From a bacterium (GTDB taxonomy: Bacteria > JAJVIF01 > JAGGVT01), in contig JAGGVT010000106.1 in NCBI GenBank assembly GCA_021157815.1, positions 1-15,555 on the forward strand: a stretch of 15,555 bases of DNA. The letters run 5' to 3'. The notes beneath the pieces were generated by a model. That model was given only the letters and a program-made list of their open reading frames with translations. It was not told where the DNA came from and made no database searches. A program made the position numbers and the translations under genes. Position 1 is the stretch's first letter, and each line of letters starts with the position of its first letter. Positions 1 through 13,911 of this stretch are shown one piece after another.

Positions 1-2022
1 GAGGGTAAGGACATTAGCACTGCAACAACAGATACAATTCAATTTAACCCTCCAACTATGGTTTGTCGCGGCTTTTATAATTCTTATTTTTCATATCGTG
101 ATTATGATATAAATTTTGATCTGTATGGTTTTGATGAAAATGGCGATTATTGTGGACATCTTGATCATGATGGGCCAATTCATCTGCAGTCAGACATCAT
201 TCACCCAACCGTTACAGCTGTCATTTCCGAGGAAACCTTATTAGACGAAGGTGGAAGCGAGCTCCCCTGTTCCATGCGTAAACGATATATGGTAACTGTA
301 ACAGGAGATGATGATCACTGCATCGAAAGGGACCCGTTATTCTATTATTTCTTTAAAGGTGACAAACAGTGCAGCCCAAATCCATTATCCAGGTTATTGG
401 ATGTAGATGCACGCCATAATCCACCACAAAGTGATCATCACTTTGAAAGAAGATATTTCATTATGCCCAATACGCTTGCATGTGTTCATTATATGAAAAT
501 AGTTATGTTCGATAAAAAAGGCAACTGGAATACGACAAAAGTGGTCTCTTATCCTGATACTGTTTTTGACCAGCTGCCTTACCCAACAGAATTAACGCTG
601 TCCTTCGATGATGAACACCGCGAAAGCAACAGGCAGTATGTGAACCTTGACGTATTTCCATTTGTTCCGATTGATCAACAGGTTTGCGCATATAAAATGG
701 ATCATCCAGATCACGGCAGTTTGATTTATCTTGAAATTTCCGTTACGCCACCAATTTATGGAATTACTGTTTTTATAACTTATGAGGACCCGCTTTTTGA
801 GATGGGAAGTAACATTTTACCGACTAATATAGTTGATGATCCATACAACCCTAGTCAATATTGGTCGTCTGGACATAATCCGGATTTAACGCCGAGTGAA
901 TTCAAGCTGCTTTGGGGCAGTCATGCAGCTTACGCTGGGGATAACCTTACTTTAGGTGATAATTATAATTACTTCACGGATGGTTCTGTAAGTTGCAGTG
1001 ATTTCCCGGATTGTAAAGAAGACGATCCTATCAATGATGGGCATGTTCCCCAAATACCATGTTTCTGGACATTCTATTGTCCACCGGGATTTATGTGTGA
1101 AGACAGCGAGTGTCTTAAAACAGGAATAGTACCGTTGAAAACAAATATATTCGGCAAAGCGGCAACTTACTTCGAAACACAGGGGCACGGTGGGGACAAC
1201 TTCAAATTCAAGGCATATACAATCTCCGATGTATGCGAAAAGGAATGTTTATTAAGTGAGCCCGAAGATGTTTTTACCGTTTGGAGAAGAATGACGGTGG
1301 ATTATGCCTGGATGGCTGATAGAAATGGTAGATATCCGGTAAATGATCAAGGTGAAGGATTGTGCAAGAATCCAGCTGGAGCTATTCAACCAGAACATGA
1401 AGGTGATCATCAGATTGGTTCCGGTGATTTTAACATGTATAAAGGCGTCTTTGATGATTGTTTTTTGGAAATTGAAGAAGGTGGGGAAAATGGCAATTTG
1501 CCCTATGAATTGGTTTTGAATGGTGGGTATGACCCTCCAGATGATAAAACCACTTATGACTATGCAAGCTGGTGGTATCCAGAAAGAGATGAAGTACTTA
1601 TGCTTGGAATAGATCATTTAAATTATAAATGCGTGAATATTAAATATGGTGATACTACGTGTGGTTCAATGTCGGAAAGGGAATTCTATAGTTATGTGGC
1701 AGTTGGCAATAGGGATGATGTTTATATGGTTGGTGGGTATGACTTCATTGATGGAAAAACATATGGATATGATCCATTACATGATTCTTCATCATTAGCA
1801 ATACCTTGCTTGAATACTGCAGCACACGAGCTTACTCATAATATCATTCGTATTGGCAATCCTTATCATGAAATTCCATACGGATTAATGTATGCTGGTG
1901 ATGCTCCTTTTGTATCTCTAGACGGTGAAGATGACAAAGTACCGGGGCGTCGTTTTTATCTTCACAGTATTCACATAATGGATTTCAGAGCAAGCATACC
2001 TTTTGACAGCTTAGCTTATTAA
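1..2022 (+). CDS. Large secreted-type protein with C-terminal metzincin-like zinc protease motif (5' partial)
   Basis: The reading frame is open from the first base of the window, so the ATG at 58 is probably internal and the true start and signal peptide lie upstream. There are 673 visible residues. A cysteine cluster spans residues 332-371 and ends in a C-x5-C-x5-C-x4-C pattern resembling small disulfide-rich modules of extracellular proteins. A VFTVWRRMTVDY segment (424-435) recalls a W-R-[RK]-[LM] motif I associate with uncharacterised bacterial secreted metalloprotease-like proteins. Near the C-terminus HELTH (609-613) is followed by a further His and then GLMY. This order, HExxH, third His, then LM(Y) as a possible Met-turn, resembles matrixin-like metzincins, but the HExxH-to-third-His spacing is longer than canonical. 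Zinc binding and proteolysis are therefore predictions. Its last ~117 residues recur in two downstream remnants, and a lipoprotein gene starts 17 bases after the stop, suggesting an operon. The composition is A+T-rich. Confidence 0.82.
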   Translation, partial: EGKDISTATTDTIQFNPPTMVCRGFYNSYFSYRDYDINFDLYGFDENGDYCGHLDHDGPIHLQSDIIHPTVTAVISEETLLDEGGSELPCSMRKRYMVTVTGDDDHCIERDPLFYYFFKGDKQCSPNPLSRLLDVDARHNPPQSDHHFERRYFIMPNTLACVHYMKIVMFDKKGNWNTTKVVSYPDTVFDQLPYPTELTLSFDDEHRESNRQYVNLDVFPFVPIDQQVCAYKMDHPDHGSLIYLEISVTPPIYGITVFITYEDPLFEMGSNILPTNIVDDPYNPSQYWSSGHNPDLTPSEFKLLWGSHAAYAGDNLTLGDNYNYFTDGSVSCSDFPDCKEDDPINDGHVPQIPCFWTFYCPPGFMCEDSECLKTGIVPLKTNIFGKAATYFETQGHGGDNFKFKAYTISDVCEKECLLSEPEDVFTVWRRMTVDYAWMADRNGRYPVNDQGEGLCKNPAGAIQPEHEGDHQIGSGDFNMYKGVFDDCFLEIEEGGENGNLPYELVLNGGYDPPDDKTTYDYASWWYPERDEVLMLGIDHLNYKCVNIKYGDTTCGSMSEREFYSYVAVGNRDDVYMVGGYDFIDGKTYGYDPLHDSSSLAIPCLNTAAHELTHNIIRIGNPYHEIPYGLMYAGDAPFVSLDGEDDKVPGRRFYLHSIHIMDFRASIPFDSLAY

Positions 2023-2039
2023 CATTAAGGAGAAGAAAA

Positions 2040-2786
2040 ATGAGATCTAAAATATTCAGTTTAATGTTCATTACCATATTTATGATAACTCTAACATCAT
2101 GTGGCTCATCATCTGTTAATGGAGATGAATCTGCATCCAATAGAAAAGGCACGAATGAAAATGCTAGTAACGAAACTGAAGAAATATTCGCAAGCGATAC
2201 TGCTAACGGTGTAACGGCAACCTGGGGTTTTAGCCCATTAACTTATGATATTTTTTTAGACTTCAGAAATGGTTCACTTGAGTTCACTCAATTTACACTG
2301 GATTACAGAAAATACATGAATCGTGATTCAAATGAGAGACCAAGAGAATATGAGTTTTTTGGTATTATAGCGGGTCATTATTTTAAAAGAACAGATATGA
2401 ATTCGATTACGGAGTTCGGTTCAGGTCTTGTAAAAATAGATAATATCAATATGACTCGTGAGAATCCGAGAAGATACTTTTCAAAAGAAGAAGTTGATGA
2501 AATTTTTAATTATCTTGATGCTAATAATGGATATTTTTTCAATGGTGAGGAATTTGAGGAGTTGGATAACCCGTACATAACTAATACAATAACAATGGAT
2601 TGGACTGATCATACTTTCACTTTAATAATTCCTAATACAGAAGTTCTTGATCCATCTTTTCAGGAGTCATACGTACCTGCGTGGGCAATAAACAAATGCA
2701 TTGATGAGGTTGATCTTTATCCTGACCATACACTCTCCGGTCTGTTCGATCTACTCGAAGACAATTTCATAAGCCAGTTTGAATAA
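2040..2786 (+). CDS. Lipoprotein, partner of metalloprotease-like gene, module 1
   Basis: A 248-residue protein with an N-terminal hydrophobic segment ending in the lipobox LTSC (Cys21), followed by a Ser/Asn/Glu-rich linker. It is predicted to be lipid-anchored; there is no Asp after the Cys, so outer-membrane sorting is plausible by the enterobacterial rule. The start is supported by AAGGAG (2027-2032), seven bases before the ATG. No known family is recognised. Two blocks are shared with the next lipoprotein (3170-3931): a region with FSKEEVDEIF and YFFNG near residues 144-170, and the C-terminal 40 residues, where 33 are identical. The gene sits 17 bases behind the metalloprotease-like gene, so they are probably co-transcribed. 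An inhibitor, immunity or chaperone role towards that protein is inferred from context alone. Confidence 0.85.
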   Translation: MRSKIFSLMFITIFMITLTSCGSSSVNGDESASNRKGTNENASNETEEIFASDTANGVTATWGFSPLTYDIFLDFRNGSLEFTQFTLDYRKYMNRDSNERPREYEFFGIIAGHYFKRTDMNSITEFGSGLVKIDNINMTRENPRRYFSKEEVDEIFNYLDANNGYFFNGEEFEELDNPYITNTITMDWTDHTFTLIIPNTEVLDPSFQESYVPAWAINKCIDEVDLYPDHTLSGLFDLLEDNFISQFE

Positions 2787-2802
2787 AAACTCTTTCTTTT
2801 AA

Positions 2803-3153
2803 GAAGTTAATCCGTGGGATTACTCAGACAAGGATTTTAGAGCATTCGTTGCAGTTGGTGATATATCGGATATGATTGAAAATAATGTATGGTACAGACT
2901 TATAGACAAGCGGAAATTCAAAGATTATCCTTACCCTAGCCTAAATACTTCAGCTCATGAGTTGACACATAGCATAGTTCAAAATCCTGACCATGTTCCC
3001 TCTTACGGATTAATGTGCCCTGGTCAGGTTAGATGGGCTCCAGTTAATCCGCCAGTTGATATGCGTAAAGTGCCAGCTCGCAGGTCATATTTGCATAGCT
3101 GCAATATTATGAAATTAAGATCAGGAATATTATTCGATCCTGTCGAATACTAA
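2803..3153 (+). pseudogene. Orphan C-terminal fragment of the metalloprotease-like protein, module 2
   Basis: Translation in this frame matches the end of the first gene: SDKDFRAFVAVG aligns with SEREFYSYVAVG, then HELTH (2956-2970), a His four residues before GLM, a K-V-P-x-R-R segment and a final acidic-Tyr end. The resemblance begins about 30 bases after the preceding lipoprotein stop, upstream of the first ATG (2872), and that ATG has no convincing ribosome binding site. The ~550 N-terminal residues present in module 1 are missing. This is most simply a 5'-truncated remnant. The intact zinc motif and open frame to the stop leave open a retained recombination donor, or an unusual start giving a ~94-residue protein. 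The next lipoprotein begins 16 bases after the stop, as in module 1. Confidence 0.65.
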
Positions 3154-3169
3154 CATACGGAGGCAGAAA

Positions 3170-3931
3170 ATGAATATTAAAACCAAACTGAATTTAGCGA
3201 TTTTTTTAATGATTTGTTTGCTTGTCATAACATGCTTAAATGCGTGTAGTCAAAGAAGGAATCCTGATACATCAGTCAATCCTGATAATGAAAAACGCAA
3301 TGAAGCTGTTGCTGGTCAAAGTGATTCAAATAAGGATACTTCCAGTAACGCGGATGTTAAATACGAAATAGATTACGCATACACTCCTTTAACACATGTT
3401 AAATTCCAAGATATTCGAAACAGTGTTGATCTATTCACAGCGATTGATATATATTATAAAAAGTCTGTGAATCCTGATCAAAATGGTCACAATCAATATT
3501 TATCTCGTTTTTACCTTGATGCTGGTGGTAGTTTTTCAATTAGCCACTATAATGACATAAGTGAATATGAAGGTACATTAGTATATCGTGATCTCACAGT
3601 GCCAATAGAGAAAGAGAAATTCAAGGTTTTTTCAAAAGATGATGTTAACGCAATATTTGACTATCTTGAAGCTAATCATGATTACTTTTTTAATGGCAAT
3701 GAATATGAAGGGCTTGAAATACCTTATCTGTGTCAAGGCATAAATATATGCAATGCAAACTACATCTTCACACTATCATTTTCTGATCCCTATTTCCTTG
3801 AAGAAGCTTTTCAGGAACAGTATTTTCCCGCCTGGGCAATTAGTAAATGCATTGATGAGGTTTATCCTGACCATCCACTCTACGGTTTGTTCGAGCTGCT
3901 CGAAGATGATTTCATAAGCCAGTTTGAGTAG
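3170..3931 (+). CDS. Lipoprotein, partner gene of module 2
   Basis: A 253-residue paralogue of the lipoprotein at 2040-2786. The signal peptide ends in lipobox LNAC with Cys26 as the lipidation site, and a polar Asn/Ser/Asp-rich linker follows. The start is supported by CGGAGG (3158-3163), six bases from the ATG. The best-conserved parts are FSKDDVNAIFDYLEANHDYFFNG in the middle (key residues F, S, K, V, I, F, Y, L, N, Y, F, F, N, G shared) and the C-terminus from PAWAI to the FISQFE end. The middle sections and N-terminal linkers are divergent. The gene looks intact although its upstream protease-like partner is a fragment, which suggests selection to keep the lipoprotein. No family is recognised, so the function is unknown. 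Confidence 0.85.
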   Translation: MNIKTKLNLAIFLMICLLVITCLNACSQRRNPDTSVNPDNEKRNEAVAGQSDSNKDTSSNADVKYEIDYAYTPLTHVKFQDIRNSVDLFTAIDIYYKKSVNPDQNGHNQYLSRFYLDAGGSFSISHYNDISEYEGTLVYRDLTVPIEKEKFKVFSKDDVNAIFDYLEANHDYFFNGNEYEGLEIPYLCQGINICNANYIFTLSFSDPYFLEEAFQEQYFPAWAISKCIDEVYPDHPLYGLFELLEDDFISQFE

Positions 3932-3970
3932 AATGGGCAATGGCGAAATGGGGCAGCTTCCTTTTTGTTG

Positions 3971-4391
3971 ACTGATCAGGATTTGCGCTCTATGATAAGT
4001 GCATGCGGAGTGTATCACGAAATATATTTTCAAGTTTGGACAACCCAAAAGAAGGACTCATTTTAGCGAATTGTCAAGGAGGGCATCCGTGATGGCATAT
4101 ATAATCAGCCACAAAAAAGGGCGCTGTCCCCTTTTCCCCAAGAGGATTGACTTGGAAGAAATAGATGAAGAGATCATTATAAGTGGAATTACTGCAACCC
4201 ATGAATTAGGTCATGCTATAGCTTTTCACAATCAGATTAGTCAGAAAACCATTGGCCATTTTTCAGGACCAGGATTAATGTGGAGTGTTCAAGGAATGCC
4301 TTGCACAGTTCTATCAAGAAAGAATGGTAGAAGAATGAGCTATTTCTGGGGAGATCATGTGTTCGTTATGCGGTTTGATCCTGAGATATAA
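3971..4391 (+). pseudogene. Frameshifted C-terminal remnant of the metalloprotease-like protein, module 3, with inserted repeat
   Basis: From 3971 one frame reads TDQDLRSMISACG, matching SDKDFRAFVAVG of module 2, and stops at 4064-4066. A different frame then carries HELGH (4200-4214), a His four residues before GLM, an RR segment and an MRFDPEI end, matching the two other modules. Between them lies a dispersed 49-base repeat (4086-4134) that also occurs at 11409-11457. The spacing from the TDQD segment to HExxH is about 229 bases, against 132 in module 2 and 153 in module 1, in keeping with an insertion. An open frame from a GTG at 3999 spans the repeat and would give 130 residues, but the break makes a functional product unlikely. 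The lipoprotein of module 3 follows after 33 bases. Confidence 0.6.
4086..4134. repeat. Dispersed repeat A, copy 1 (inside module 3 remnant)
   Basis: This aligns without gaps to 11409-11457 with 43 of 49 bases identical, including a 15-base block (GCATATATAATCAGC) and a 12-base block (AGGGCGCTGTCC). The AAAAGGG/CCCTTTT arms (4115-4121 and 4129-4135) can form a hairpin with A and T tracts on both sides, so it could act as a small bidirectional terminator-like element. The GGG-x-x-CTGTCCC core resembles the hairpin after lptD at 9908-9928. Confidence 0.75.
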
Positions 4392-4424
4392 TACAAGTAT
4401 CCTTTCTGAAAGAGGTATATTAAA

Positions 4425-5171
4425 ATGAGAATATTCAGTATTTTACTATTAATTGCAATTCTATTAACAATGTCTTCATGTTCTGGCGAGAAGAGTAGTG
4501 AACAAGATTTGCATTCCAATAGCGTGGCAAGAGTGGTTCACAACAACCAAAATACTGTTCCCGATTTGACAACTGATTTGGCAAGTCATAATCGACCAAC
4601 TCCACGCATTCCACGTGAACCAATAACGCAGGAGTACTTTGATGAATTCATTGAATCAACTTTGCAGTTTTCGCTTTTAAGGTTTGAGTATTCCATGTCA
4701 TATGATGAAAATAATCCAAATGCAAGAAAACAGGTTTTTCAGTTAAAAATACCAATGGATATAGATAACAGTACATATTTAATTCGCAATAGAGTGTTGT
4801 CAGATATTATCAATTACAAGGCTTATTACAAAGATAGAAATCTTGCACAAAGGTTTAAGTGCCTTTTTCCATCAAACACTATTTTACCAATTTTTCAAAC
4901 AATTCAATCTCAGGGTGATTACTATTTCAATGCGGGGGAATATGGTGGTGAGGAAAGTCTTGACATTGCATTGCCTAGAGCATTTGGTCATGTGAACTAC
5001 ATAACTATGACGATTCAAGAACCTGAGCTGGAACCCTTTGATATCCCGCCACACAAAACACTCTGCAAAGGATGGGATCCGGGTGATGATCCGCCTGCGG
5101 AACTGATGCCATTGATAGCTTATCTTGAAAGCGTGATAATCCCTGAAATGCGCCAGCATCCGTATCCGTAA
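4425..5171 (+). CDS. Lipoprotein, divergent partner gene of module 3
   Basis: A 248-residue protein with a short signal peptide ending in lipobox MSSC (Cys19), then a polar, Asn/Thr/Pro-rich linker. The start follows an AGAGG stretch in the right place. It is a distant relative of the two previous lipoproteins. The clearest shared block is the QSQGDYYFNAGEYGGEE segment, matching ANHDYFFNGNEYEG, and the overall length and layout are alike. The conserved C-terminal KCIDEV...FISQFE block is replaced by a different, Pro- and acid-rich end with an L-x3-L-x-Y-L type helix. The match of lipoprotein to the equally divergent HELGH remnant upstream suggests that pairs diverged together. No known function. 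Confidence 0.82.
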   Translation: MRIFSILLLIAILLTMSSCSGEKSSEQDLHSNSVARVVHNNQNTVPDLTTDLASHNRPTPRIPREPITQEYFDEFIESTLQFSLLRFEYSMSYDENNPNARKQVFQLKIPMDIDNSTYLIRNRVLSDIINYKAYYKDRNLAQRFKCLFPSNTILPIFQTIQSQGDYYFNAGEYGGEESLDIALPRAFGHVNYITMTIQEPELEPFDIPPHKTLCKGWDPGDDPPAELMPLIAYLESVIIPEMRQHPYP

Positions 5172-7490: not shown

Positions 7491-9872
7491 TTGGCGGGAG
7501 GCAGGATAAAATATTCAGAACTTGCCACGATTATTCTCCAGATCGTGCTCCTTTCGCTTGTCCTTGTTGATTCAGCCCACGCCGAGGAAACGGACATAAT
7601 ATTCGAGGCGGATCACCAGAGACGAATCCGCGACAGCAATGTTATCGTGCTGACAGGCAATGTTTATGTGAATTTCCAGGACTATGATTTCTACGCTGAT
7701 GAGGTTCGCCTTGACGAGGAGAAAAAGGAGATTTTCGGTATCGGCAATGTGAAAATCGAGGGTCAGGACCGTGTAGTCAACGCCGACAGTTTCTGGTATA
7801 ACTATGATCGGGATGATTTCGAGGCGACTAAAGCGAATGGAATGATTATGGTCGGAGGAGTCGGCGAACCTGTTTATTTTGTCTGCCAGAAGATCAAGGG
7901 AAATATCAACAACTACAAACTCATCTCGACCACCATGACTACATGCGAGCCGCATGAGAGCCAGGAGTATCATATCAGGGCCAATATGGTTAAAGTCCTG
8001 CCTGATAACAAAGTCATTCTTCGAAACGCATGGTTTTATTTTGGAAAGGTTCCGATTTTCTTTTTCCCTTATTATGTCTATTCACTTAAGGAAACGCCGT
8101 TTGAACTGCAGGTTGGAAAGAACCGTACCGAGGGAACCTATGTGAAGATACGCTACAACTATCTTTACAAGGAAAACATAATGGGCTCGCTTATTTATCA
8201 TTACCTTTCCAGGCTGGGAATGCGTTTCGGCGCTGATTATAAATACTACATTGATGGCCAGGGCGAGGGCGCATTTAATATTACGTACCTTAGAACAAGA
8301 AAGAGCGCTGGCGGCGGCTCGGATATCTCACTCAATACACGCCAGAAATTCAGATTCTCCCCGCAGTTCTCGGGAGATGTCAGCATACGGCAGGATCGGG
8401 ATGTCGATGTCGTTTCAGGCCGAACTCGAAATAATTTCCAGTCCAGAATCAGCCTTACAGACAGAACTCCAACAACCAACTCATCGTTTAACTACTCATA
8501 CAGCTCGCAGAAGGGCAACACGAATTCATCAAGCGCGACATCGCAGCTGACACATCGCAGGGACTGGAAAAAACGCAACCTAAATTTCGATGCGAACTTC
8601 AACTTCAACAGAAATAACACATCCACCGAGGATAAAAACGGCAGCCTTGTGGACGATACGGAATTGCAGGCGAGGCTTGACCTATCAAAACGCAAGGATC
8701 TGTATGACTGGAAATTCAAACTTGAAAAGCGATTTGACATAGATGGCAGCCGTTATGCCGGGGATGAAAATCGAACCTATTTCAACCGGCTTCCTGAAAT
8801 CACTCTTTCGGTAAAACCGGACTTTTTCTCATCTAAAAAAGAGCGGGAGGGGTACGGTGAGGGTCGGCCCGGCAATGGTTTCGTGATGAGGAAACTGGAA
8901 TTCAAAGGCGCACTCTATTATCAGGGCCCCAAAGACGATGAGATTCAGGGGTTCTTCGGGAAATTCAAAACCGACATAAACCGTGATTTCCCGGTAAGTG
9001 AATCAGCGCGATTCACATCCTCATGCGGATACCTGCAGAATATATCATCGACCGGCGACGCACTATACAGCTTCACTCCGCAAATAGGATTCCGCAAGGA
9101 GTTCTCGAAGAAACTGAAAATGGACATGAACTGGCGCAAGAGTGAATCGAACGGACGATCTCCTTTCAGGCAGGAATCCGGGTCTGGAAGCAACAATAGT
9201 CTCAACTGGAATATGAACCTGAATGACAAGAAATGGTCGCATCGCTGGAGCACCGGATATAATGTAAAGGGCAGCAGATGGCAGAACCTTAATTACAACA
9301 TGACATATAAAAGCGGGCAGAAATTCAGATACAACCTGTCAACATCATACGCGATAAAAGGCGGCGACTGGTCGCCATTGAACAATTCAATAACACTTAC
9401 AAACAGTAAAACATATACAACAGATTTCTCGCTTGTTTACAATTTAAAAGATAACAAACTCACATCATTTTCGAACAATACAAAAATGATTCTTGGCCCC
9501 AACTGGGATCTCGAATTCCAGATGCAACACTCGCACGGCTCGGATGATTCATTCCCCTGGTTGAAAACCATTTACCTCAACAAAAGGCTCGACTGCACAT
9601 TCTTCCAGATATCGTACGAATCATCGAACGACGCTATCATGTTCGCCTATGGAATAACGGCGTATCCGAAACTGAGTTACTCGTACCGCAACAACGATCA
9701 GGGAATGCGAAATACGCTGCCCGGCTTCGGCAGCGGCGGATTTGATTTCGGCGGCGGCACATTCGGCGGAATGGGCGGCGGCAGCGGTTACGGCGGCGGT
9801 GGCTATTACGGCGGTGGTGGCGGCTACGGCGGCGGTGGCGGCGGCTATTACGGCGGTGGCGGAATGTATTAG
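7491..9872 (+). CDS. lptD: LPS-assembly protein LptD (outer-membrane LPS translocon) with glycine-rich C-terminal tail
   Basis: A 793-residue LptD-like protein, which in the known family inserts lipopolysaccharide into the outer leaflet together with the lipoprotein LptE. The TTG at 7491 gives a signal peptide ending near SAHA (cleavage after residue 31). No ATG exists near the N-terminus and the upstream binding site is weak. Residues 34-125 form an OstA/LptA-like domain with repeated LTGNVYVNFQDYDFYADEVRLD-type strands. A TTCEPHESQEYHIRA segment and the PIFFFPYYVYSL motif (188-199) typical of LptD lead into a long barrel region of alternating aromatic/polar strands. Residues 745-793 are an unusual Gly/Tyr-rich tail, ending in Met-Tyr, not expected in LptD. 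No other lpt gene is in the window. The tail and TTG start are the least certain points. Confidence 0.9.
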   Translation: MAGGRIKYSELATIILQIVLLSLVLVDSAHAEETDIIFEADHQRRIRDSNVIVLTGNVYVNFQDYDFYADEVRLDEEKKEIFGIGNVKIEGQDRVVNADSFWYNYDRDDFEATKANGMIMVGGVGEPVYFVCQKIKGNINNYKLISTTMTTCEPHESQEYHIRANMVKVLPDNKVILRNAWFYFGKVPIFFFPYYVYSLKETPFELQVGKNRTEGTYVKIRYNYLYKENIMGSLIYHYLSRLGMRFGADYKYYIDGQGEGAFNITYLRTRKSAGGGSDISLNTRQKFRFSPQFSGDVSIRQDRDVDVVSGRTRNNFQSRISLTDRTPTTNSSFNYSYSSQKGNTNSSSATSQLTHRRDWKKRNLNFDANFNFNRNNTSTEDKNGSLVDDTELQARLDLSKRKDLYDWKFKLEKRFDIDGSRYAGDENRTYFNRLPEITLSVKPDFFSSKKEREGYGEGRPGNGFVMRKLEFKGALYYQGPKDDEIQGFFGKFKTDINRDFPVSESARFTSSCGYLQNISSTGDALYSFTPQIGFRKEFSKKLKMDMNWRKSESNGRSPFRQESGSGSNNSLNWNMNLNDKKWSHRWSTGYNVKGSRWQNLNYNMTYKSGQKFRYNLSTSYAIKGGDWSPLNNSITLTNSKTYTTDFSLVYNLKDNKLTSFSNNTKMILGPNWDLEFQMQHSHGSDDSFPWLKTIYLNKRLDCTFFQISYESSNDAIMFAYGITAYPKLSYSYRNNDQGMRNTLPGFGSGGFDFGGGTFGGMGGGSGYGGGGYYGGGGGYGGGGGGYYGGGGMY
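9721..9869 (+). repeat. Low-complexity GGCGGC/TACGGC tract encoding the LptD glycine tail
   Basis: The 3' end of lptD is a run of imperfect GGC/GGT/GGA glycine codons interrupted by TAC/TAT tyrosine codons, including GGCTATTACGGCGG units. Such tracts are prone to slippage, and the codons are mixed, which argues against a very recent expansion. Open frames in the other two frames here are products of this repetition. Confidence 0.8.
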
Positions 9873-11555: not shown

Positions 11556-11584
11556 TTGTCCGAAAAGCGAAAATGTGGTATAAT
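11556..11584 (+). promoter_or_regulatory. Sigma-70-type promoter of the riboswitch leader
   Basis: TTGTCC (11556-11561) and a perfect TATAAT (11579-11584) are separated by exactly 17 bases. A start near 11591 would place the whole riboswitch aptamer at the beginning of the transcript. Position and spacing make this the most convincing promoter in the window. Confidence 0.75.
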
Positions 11585-11604
11585 AGGCTTTGTCGGTAAT
11601 ATAT

Positions 11605-11702
11605 CTTCGTCGATAAAGGCAAAATTGCCGTAAGGCAATGACGCAAAGAACCGGGTCTTTTTTTATTACATTAAAAGAGACAGCCGGACTGCCGAAGCGA
11701 AG
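11605..11702 (+). promoter_or_regulatory. Cyclic di-GMP-I (GEMM-I) riboswitch
   Basis: The conserved GEMM-I features occur in order. First comes AAAGGCAAA (11615-11623), then a hairpin ATTGCC-GTAA-GGCAAT with a GNRA tetraloop, then GACGCAAAG (11640-11648). A second hairpin, CCGGGTCT...AGACAGCCGG, has a variable T/A-rich end, and the closing element is CTGCCGAAG. The outer helix P1 can form from CTTCG (11605-11609) with CGAAG (11693-11697 or 11698-11702). In the known class these elements bind the second messenger c-di-GMP and control motility, biofilm and surface-polysaccharide genes. Here the element lies just after a good promoter and just before a terminator, with a GH123/DUF4091-like lipoprotein as the target. 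Covariance-model scoring was not possible by eye. Confidence 0.88.
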
Positions 11703-11723
11703 CTCCCCTGCGATTAAGAGGGC

Positions 11724-11770
11724 AACCAACCCTCAAGTTCAATGAGAGCTTGCGGGTTGGTTTCTTTTTT
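11724..11770 (+). terminator. Intrinsic terminator, riboswitch expression platform
   Basis: AACCAACCC (11724-11732) pairs perfectly with GGGTTGGTT (11754-11762). Inside it, after a single mismatch, CAAG pairs with CTTG, and a T-rich run (TTTCTTTTTT, 11761-11770) follows. It starts 21 bases after the aptamer and ends 60 bases before the coding start, the standard place for a transcription-terminating expression platform. Confidence 0.85.
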
Positions 11771-11829
11771 GCCCCTCGACGAAAATGCAATCCGGTTAAT
11801 AATGAATCTCATGCAAGGAGGCATGAATC

Positions 11830-13911
11830 ATGACAACAACAAGAATCCTCGGACTTTTCATATTGCTTTTACTCATATTTATCGGCTCATGCGCAAAACA
11901 AGGCGGATTAAACCCGTCATCTCCGAATCCTCCCGTAGGCAATAATGACATTCTGGATGGCTATATCACTGATTCCAACGATGAACCGCTTCCAGAAATG
12001 ATTGTGGAAATATATGATATGGACAATAATCCGCTTGGCCAGACAACAACGGATAACAATGGCTATTTTAAGTTCGACCTTGATCCCAATGACGATTATA
12101 AAATCTCAACCCGGGATGCATCCAGTGTTGCTTCTCTTGGTTTCTGGGAATATACAGGTCCAACAGACGATAATATCATCCCAATCAGTCCTGAGAAATC
12201 AGGCACGGTTGAGGGTTCAATCGGAATAAAAATCTGGATACCGTCAGGCGGAACAGTTTATACAATTCCGCCACTGGATCAATCAATAATCAACCCAAGC
12301 ACTGGTGTAAACTTGTCCTATTCCATTCGCGCGGCGAGTTCGATGCAGAAAATCCTGTATTCAACCGACCTTGATTCACTCGCGACATCAATGAGAATCG
12401 AGGGCGCTCGCGGTGAACATGAGGCATTCCAGCTTGTTCCGTATTTGAACCAATCCGCCAACAGCATTCATGGCGTCGAAGTTACAGCATCCGACCTTCT
12501 AAAAGGCAGCGACAGAATCACCGCGAATAACATAACAATTTTCCTTGAACATTATGTCGAAGTTACAGTGCCTACCGATGAAGGCGGCGGCATTGGATTC
12601 TGGCCCGATGCGCTTGTTCCATTGACAACACCATTTGATGTCCTGACAACATCGCCGTCTCCCGTGTGGATAGATGTCAACATACCGCAAAGCGCTGTTC
12701 CCGGCGAGTATCATGGCAGTATCAGGTTTTCATCCCCGGATGGCGGCAACTATACATTTCACTACAACCTTGAGGTTTGGAATATTGTTTTCCCAAGCAG
12801 GTTCTATATAAAAGCCAATATCGGCCTTGACCAAGAGGATATCGTAGGCGCGCATAATTTACCGTACGGCCTTGGAACTCCAGCCGGAAGGGAATTTACA
12901 AGAACGTACGCCGGGTTCCTGGCAGACAGGCATATATCAACGCACGGCGTTCCTCTATTCCAGCCGAATGTTACATTGAATCCGGATAATCGCTCTTATG
13001 AAATAAATTATGGTGAAATGCAGCTTGATATTGAAATGTTCCTGGATGGCTACGATCAAAATAACTTCCAGTTCCCGCTTGATCGTTTTGATGTAATAAA
13101 CGAAGGATTTATCCTTAGTGGTGAGGAACAGTGGACTCCGGATTTCAACGCCAGATTCGTTGATTTTACCGAGCAGGTTTCGAGTTACTTGTCAGCGCAT
13201 GGCTATCTCGACCGCTCCTACATGTGGATGATAGATGAGCCCAACAACAAGTATGATTATGATCAGGTCCGCAACTGGTCCAATTTAAACGATTACGCAT
13301 CAATTCATCCCGATTACATGGTCACCGAACAGCCCGCACCGCAGGATCCATCATTCGGTACGCTTCATGATCACGTTGATATTTTCACTATGTGCATACG
13401 GGTGCTTGATTATGGTGAATCACTTGTCCGTGCCGGCGCTGAGGATAAAGAGGAATGGATTTACACAAACACGAATGTGTATCCGTATCCCAGCATCGCG
13501 ATTGACAGGCAGGGTGTGGAGCTAAGGCTGTTTTTGTGGTTCGTATATCAGCACGGATTCGAGGGAATGTTGTATTCATCAGCGAACGACTGGACGATAG
13601 CTAACCCGTGGGAAAATCCGATGACTTACAATCCCGCTTTCGGCAACGGCTGCAGCAGCCTGCTTTATCCCGGCAACATGTGCTACACGTACACCGGACA
13701 GGATAATGTAAACGGGCCTGTCAGTTCCATAAGGCTTGAAATGATTCGAAATGGCCTTGAGGATACGCAGCTGCTTTATACTCTCGCGCATGGTTTGCCT
13801 GTAAACAAGGCGGACGAGCTCATGGCCAGCTGGACAGATTACACAGATGACCCGGATGAACTTCTGAGAGTTCGCGGGGAAATCGCTGATATGATTACGA
13901 GCGGGTCGTAA
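11830..13911 (+). CDS. Lipoprotein with carboxypeptidase-regulatory-like and GH123/DUF4091-like glycoside hydrolase domains
   Basis: A 693-residue predicted envelope glycosidase. The signal peptide ends in lipobox IGSC (Cys21). Residues 41-95 (DGYITDSNDEPLPEMIVEIYD...TTTDNNGYFKF) form a carboxypeptidase-regulatory-like beta domain. GARGEHEAFQLV (192-203) matches the N-terminal signature of GH123/DUF4091 proteins. MIDEPN, with Asp469-Glu470, fits the catalytic Asp-Glu pair of GH123 (substrate-assisted beta-N-acetylgalactosaminidases). The SSIRLEMIRNGLED segment (632-645), preceded by a GNGC-SSLLYPG block, is typical of DUF4091 C-termini. AAGGAGG (11815-11821) lies eight bases before the ATG. 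The leader carries a c-di-GMP riboswitch and terminator, so expression should follow c-di-GMP. The substrate is not readable; an exopolysaccharide or cell-surface glycan is a reasonable guess. Confidence 0.88.
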   Translation: MTTTRILGLFILLLLIFIGSCAKQGGLNPSSPNPPVGNNDILDGYITDSNDEPLPEMIVEIYDMDNNPLGQTTTDNNGYFKFDLDPNDDYKISTRDASSVASLGFWEYTGPTDDNIIPISPEKSGTVEGSIGIKIWIPSGGTVYTIPPLDQSIINPSTGVNLSYSIRAASSMQKILYSTDLDSLATSMRIEGARGEHEAFQLVPYLNQSANSIHGVEVTASDLLKGSDRITANNITIFLEHYVEVTVPTDEGGGIGFWPDALVPLTTPFDVLTTSPSPVWIDVNIPQSAVPGEYHGSIRFSSPDGGNYTFHYNLEVWNIVFPSRFYIKANIGLDQEDIVGAHNLPYGLGTPAGREFTRTYAGFLADRHISTHGVPLFQPNVTLNPDNRSYEINYGEMQLDIEMFLDGYDQNNFQFPLDRFDVINEGFILSGEEQWTPDFNARFVDFTEQVSSYLSAHGYLDRSYMWMIDEPNNKYDYDQVRNWSNLNDYASIHPDYMVTEQPAPQDPSFGTLHDHVDIFTMCIRVLDYGESLVRAGAEDKEEWIYTNTNVYPYPSIAIDRQGVELRLFLWFVYQHGFEGMLYSSANDWTIANPWENPMTYNPAFGNGCSSLLYPGNMCYTYTGQDNVNGPVSSIRLEMIRNGLEDTQLLYTLAHGLPVNKADELMASWTDYTDDPDELLRVRGEIADMITSGS

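Follow-up and report, generated by a model that had tools for sequence, protein, structure and literature searches.

The leader of a predicted envelope lipoprotein gene, located in the window (the whole 15,555-nucleotide stretch of DNA analysed here), carries a c-di-GMP-I aptamer followed by an intrinsic terminator. With a probability of roughly two in three, it works as a transcription-terminating OFF switch on a beta-N-acetylgalactosaminidase-like (GH123-type) enzyme and is part of a regulon of three such leaders. RNA polymerase would start near 11591. At low c-di-GMP the 3' strand of the P1 helix (11700-11705) would pair with 11746-11751 into an antiterminator and the gene would be read, whereas at high c-di-GMP the ligand would lock P1, the antiterminator would be lost and the terminator at 11724-11770 would stop transcription. 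The other two leaders precede pilus genes, and the enzyme probably belongs to a programme of surface attachment.

Leader architecture and ligand class

The leader opens with a sigma-70-type promoter (TTGTCC-17-TATAAT, 11556-11584, + strand) that matches 10 of 12 consensus positions and has a TG before the -10 box; 1.4 sites of this motif are expected by chance in the region. Window coordinate 11556 is the start of the -35 box, and the predicted transcription start lies just 5' of P1. The aptamer as delimited by cmscan and folding spans 11605-11702 (+), including a P1 extension of CUUCG (11605-11609) and CGAAG (11698-11702). It corresponds to the sole Rfam gathering match in the window (11609-11697, + strand, clan CL00126; cmscan), the RF01051 aptamer running from 11608 to 11697. 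The expression platform 3' of the aptamer consists of a strong intrinsic terminator (11724-11770, +) and a competing antiterminator. The terminator has a 9 bp outer stem with the arms AACCAACCC (11724-11732) and GGGTTGGTT (11754-11762), an inner stem, and the U tract TCTTTTTT (11763-11770). The predicted antiterminator (11700-11751, +) pairs AAGCUC (11700-11705) with GAGCUU (11746-11751) and is exclusive with both P1 and the terminator. The initial annotation had described a c-di-GMP-I (GEMM-I) aptamer with its own promoter and terminator and had proposed scoring the leader with the RF01051 covariance model. All three elements are recovered, and the score is well over the cut-off (66.2 bits vs 35; E 1.1e-12 when all 3.2 Mb of the genome are searched).

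The best clan match by E-value is nevertheless RF03167, the c-di-GMP-I-GGC family (61.4 bits vs a cut-off of 59; E 1.1e-12, cmscan of the window), which would fit a variant aptamer sensing another ligand, of the GGC or the cyclic AMP-GMP type. The bases at the ligand site make such a variant very improbable. We take positions 11618, 11645 and 11692 to be positions 20, 47 and 92 of Vc2, by a numbering that agrees with the Rfam consensi, and "GGC" presumably names the bases at these three contact positions, a meaning that fits the printed consensi (GACGCAAA in RF01051 vs GACGCGAA in RF03167). By alignment, the window has a G at 11618 (ligand-contact G20), as in c-di-GMP types, where cyclic AMP-GMP types have A. 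At 11645 the Rfam consensi and the alignment give the canonical A (A47) in place of the G of the GGC consensus, and 11692 is C (C92), which is invariant in the 24 aligned aptamers; nearly all of these carry the same G, A and C as the window. RF01051 also gives more bits than RF03167, and the GGC label is not diagnostic here, because it is likewise assigned to two other loci, L001 and L030, both of which carry A. The GGC assignment was rejected because the RF03167 alignment shows an A at 11645, although the score exceeds the cut-off, and the cyclic AMP-GMP (GEMM-Ib) type because of the G at 11618 in place of the required A. Since it carries G20, A47 and C92, the window aptamer is, by sequence, an ordinary c-di-GMP sensor and would be expected to bind c-di-GMP. 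An A for G at ligand position 20 does occur in two aptamers of other genomes, L030:1117-1191 (G001:C250, a same-class relative) and L043:1501-1591 (G055, an unrelated genome), and would mark both as putative cyclic AMP-GMP (GEMM-Ib) sensors.

Downstream of the terminator, a perfect 6 bp inverted repeat (TCATGC/GCATGA, 11809-11826, +) encloses AAGGAG as its loop, placing the Shine-Dalgarno sequence AAGGAGG (11815-11821) within a potential hairpin just 5' of the GH123 start codon. This hairpin could provide an extra, translational layer of control.

Direction of switching in three leaders

In folds of the growing transcript, free RNAs ending at 11750-11755, shortly before the terminator is complete, pair 11700-11705 with 11746-11751 at a probability of 0.73-0.87. 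That probability drops to 0 when the aptamer is kept folded, and the terminator then forms; the antiterminator uses bases that P1 requires and blocks the terminator. At full length and equilibrium the terminator folds with or without the ligand-held aptamer, and control must therefore be kinetic. Kinetic control is usual for termination riboswitches.

Exactly three RF01051 matches are present in the 3.2 Mb genome, one in the window and one on each of the contigs C137 and C36. Downstream of the C137 switch (3745-3823) are four pilin genes of the Flp type (PF04964, E 4.7e-7, 2 bits short of the Pfam cut-off), along with a gene that weakly resembles Tad. On the minus strand of this locus (L044, G000:C137, about 1900-3830), the switch is followed by four near-identical tandem Flp pilin genes of 52-55 aa. 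The C36 switch (7852-7931) is followed by genes for TadE (PF07811, 61.5 bits) and for a Tad-like protein (36.7 bits). The competition between P1 and antiterminator amounts to 4.9 kcal/mol in the window leader, a value reached by 13% of dinucleotide-shuffled tails, so that for this leader the OFF wiring is only a trend. The same competition is 8.1 kcal/mol in the C137 leader (1.5% of shuffles as high) and 15.7 kcal/mol in the C36 leader (0/200 shuffles as high). The folding models suggest OFF wiring for each of the three leaders, with statistical support for the two pilus leaders and a trend for the window. In Clostridioides difficile, 7/7 functional class I switches are OFF switches acting by termination (PMC6366702).

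The opposite polarity, by which c-di-GMP would raise the expression of pili and hydrolase as is usual for attachment genes, has a precedent in attachment pili, which are normally raised by c-di-GMP, e.g. through the class II pilA1 switch of C. difficile. It is unlikely here: in the leader folds no pairing was found through which a bound ligand would break up the terminator, and holding the aptamer abolishes the competing fold in 3/3 leaders.

The genome encodes two GGDEF proteins, of which one keeps its GGEEF motif intact (a diguanylate cyclase) and the other is degenerate, together with five HD-GYP motifs and one PilZ; no EAL was found in the genome (assembly about 91%). With an intact cyclase, PilZ and HD-GYP motifs, c-di-GMP can be made, read and removed. 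Because the other two leaders precede Flp pilins and TadE/Tad genes, the hydrolase falls into a small pilus-centred regulon, as read from one incomplete genome assembly (about 91%). Through these two leaders c-di-GMP would also control the TadE/Tad pilus proteins and the Flp pilins. If the predicted wiring is correct, the hydrolase would rise and fall with the pilins and not in opposition to them. A tentative extension of the OFF-switch reading, which we hold at somewhat less than even odds, is that low c-di-GMP yields both Tad/Flp pili and an endo-type beta-N-acetylgalactosaminidase lipoprotein, and that the three class I switches turn both off. Such an inverted arrangement would belong to an uncultured lineage in which one intact diguanylate cyclase was found.

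The GH123-type lipoprotein and the distribution of its leader

The controlled frame (11830-13911, +) starts 8 nt downstream of AAGGAGG. Beyond it, the nearest long frame lies on the opposite strand, so the leader controls one gene. The protein has a hydrophobic signal peptide that, by eye, ends in the lipobox IGS-C21, followed by a CarboxypepD_reg domain (aa 42-94; E 6.5e-8), a GH123 N-terminal beta-sandwich (Glyco_hydro_123_N_2, E 2.9e-9) and a GH123 catalytic barrel (GH123_cat, E 7e-14, 52.3 bits vs a cut-off of 23.1), all above their Pfam cut-offs. The catalytic Asp-Glu pair D469-E470 is intact: among 34 homologues E470 never varies, and conservation of D469 is at least 90%. The AlphaFold model (mean pLDDT 79.5, catalytic region mostly >90) contains the beta-sandwich and barrel fold of the GH123/beta-NGA superfamily, and in Foldseek its top 22 matches are all beta-NGA/GH123, with 8K2G at E 1.4e-34. 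The closest solved relative by phmmer is 8K2F (E 5.2e-25). Both structures are of NgaCa from Cohnella abietis, a Group 1, oligosaccharide-releasing beta-N-acetylgalactosaminidase (PMC11087588). The window protein shares with NgaCa the fold, the N-terminal beta-sandwich, the DUF4091 region and the DE pair, but the identity in the aligned fold is 22%, and it has an additional N-terminal lipobox and CarboxypepD_reg domain. The best matches suggest a Group 1 (oligosaccharide-releasing) enzyme, and beta-GalNAc chemistry is likely. The GH123/DUF4091-like lipoprotein of the initial annotation is thus recovered by the Pfam matches and the lipobox, and its proposed action on N-acetylgalactosamine-containing glycan is likely, NgaCa being the nearest solved structure.

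Elsewhere in the window, three frames with zinc-protease-like HExxH motifs (58-2022, 2872-3153 and 3999-4391) alternate with lipoprotein-like frames (2040-2786, 3170-3931 and 4425-5171). The first two lipoprotein-like frames are clearly paralogous and the third is more distant; no Pfam family above cut-off was found for this repeated protease-lipoprotein pair (58-5171). The frame at 7491-9872 encodes an LptD/OstA-like outer-membrane protein with weak Pfam matches only, ending in a long Gly/Tyr-rich tail (GYGGGGYYGGGG...) that looks unusual for the LptD/OstA family.

The initial annotation had also suggested surveying other DUF4091 genes for the same leader and had counted the lack of a link in any relative against its reading; no link was found. 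A covariance model (R1) built from the 24 aptamers was applied to 80 named loci with GH123-like genes from many phyla; 73 were testable, having at least 300 nt upstream, and apart from the window the model found a switch at 0/73. A match in L068 is no better than chance (13.4 bits, E 0.56) and is located past the gene. RF01051 occurs in 79 of 385 sampled genomes, the present one included; the 78 others include 7 genomes with a total of 8 GH123_cat matches, and a switch stands beside 0/8 of these. The closest paralogue in the same genome (on contig C16, 53%) lacks a switch in its 658-base upstream region. A conserved link between switch and GH123 gene was therefore rejected for the named loci, the other switch-bearing genomes and the paralogue. 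The nearest other genomes belong to the same class only and are without the GH123 gene, and hence all that follows from the absence is that the link is not widespread.

Known switches and the role of the enzyme

The initial annotation did not regard this target type as a standard one for the riboswitch class, a view that finds no support. For GEMM, a survey of RNA regulons lists 21 genes of polysaccharide degradation (PMC3766115), Aeromonas hydrophila has c-di-GMP switches 5' of fimbrial and chitinase genes (PMC6366702), and in one of the compared genomes (L042, G055:C1:1090779) a c-di-GMP-I switch lies directly 5' of a gene for a secreted GH26+PA14 enzyme; a glycosidase is therefore not a new target type. 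In another genome (L048, G038:C94:8375-9598), two successive c-di-GMP-I switches each stand 5' of a paralogous small lipoprotein gene with CNCFVGKRMCECVDDEG stretches.

With the RF01051 class the window leader shares the aptamer, the ligand-site bases, the terminator platform and an envelope target; it differs in the particular target gene and in nothing structural. The A. hydrophila regulon likewise pairs pilus genes with a glycoside hydrolase (PMC6366702), but its hydrolase is a chitinase and not GH123, its fimbriae are other than Tad/Flp, and the organism is unrelated. The nearest tested logic is the class I switch of C. difficile zmpI/PPEP-1, which puts a secreted, surface-acting hydrolase under negative c-di-GMP control (PMC6366702), although this hydrolase is a protease and not a glycosidase. 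C. difficile regulates its adhesins opposite to ZmpI, whereas the pilus genes of the window genome appear to go in the same direction as the hydrolase.

This last difference bears on the suggestion of the initial annotation that the switch serves matrix remodelling or dispersal, i.e. that hydrolase made at low c-di-GMP cuts the cell's own GalNAc-containing matrix and frees cells. The predicted OFF direction, the position of the lipoprotein at the envelope and, in C. difficile, the control of ZmpI/PPEP-1, a protease that releases adhesins, by a class I OFF switch (PMC6366702) all fit this suggestion. Nevertheless, the two remaining switches are likewise predicted to be OFF and stand 5' of Flp/Tad genes, which are usually used for attachment; no exopolysaccharide cluster lies beside the gene (window frames and Pfam), and a GalNAc matrix is not known for the organism. 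Simple biofilm dispersal becomes less likely, because the hydrolase is predicted to move with the pilins; we regard dispersal as distinctly improbable. Alternatively, the lipoprotein may digest the glycans of other organisms or of detritus, together with adhesive pili, when cells settle on particles, the cell's own matrix being irrelevant. This view of the role is compatible with the OFF switch as best explanation and seems a real possibility, if short of an even chance. GH123-like genes of the same type are spread over many lineages that are unrelated and mostly free-living, and c-di-GMP-I switches precede the GH26 gene and polysaccharide-degradation genes (PMC3766115), although no sugar transporter or other carbohydrate-active enzyme adjoins the gene in the window. 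Foraging, or the cutting of surface glycans during attachment, is at least as plausible as simple biofilm dispersal.

In the literature searched, no report of a GH123 gene with a riboswitch was found, and GH123 as a target with Tad/Flp pili as co-targets appears to be unreported there. The leader adds an example to a kind of control that is already known and does not establish a new kind, and through it a GH123-type enzyme joins the polysaccharide-degradation targets known for c-di-GMP-I switches. On the OFF-switch reading, the enzyme would be one output of a small surface-contact regulon, in which glycan cutting is made together with adhesive pili. In a lineage for which hardly any close relatives have been sequenced, a compact all-RNA regulon of three leaders would thus tie the cutting of glycans to Tad/Flp pili, and c-di-GMP should shift hydrolase and pilins together.
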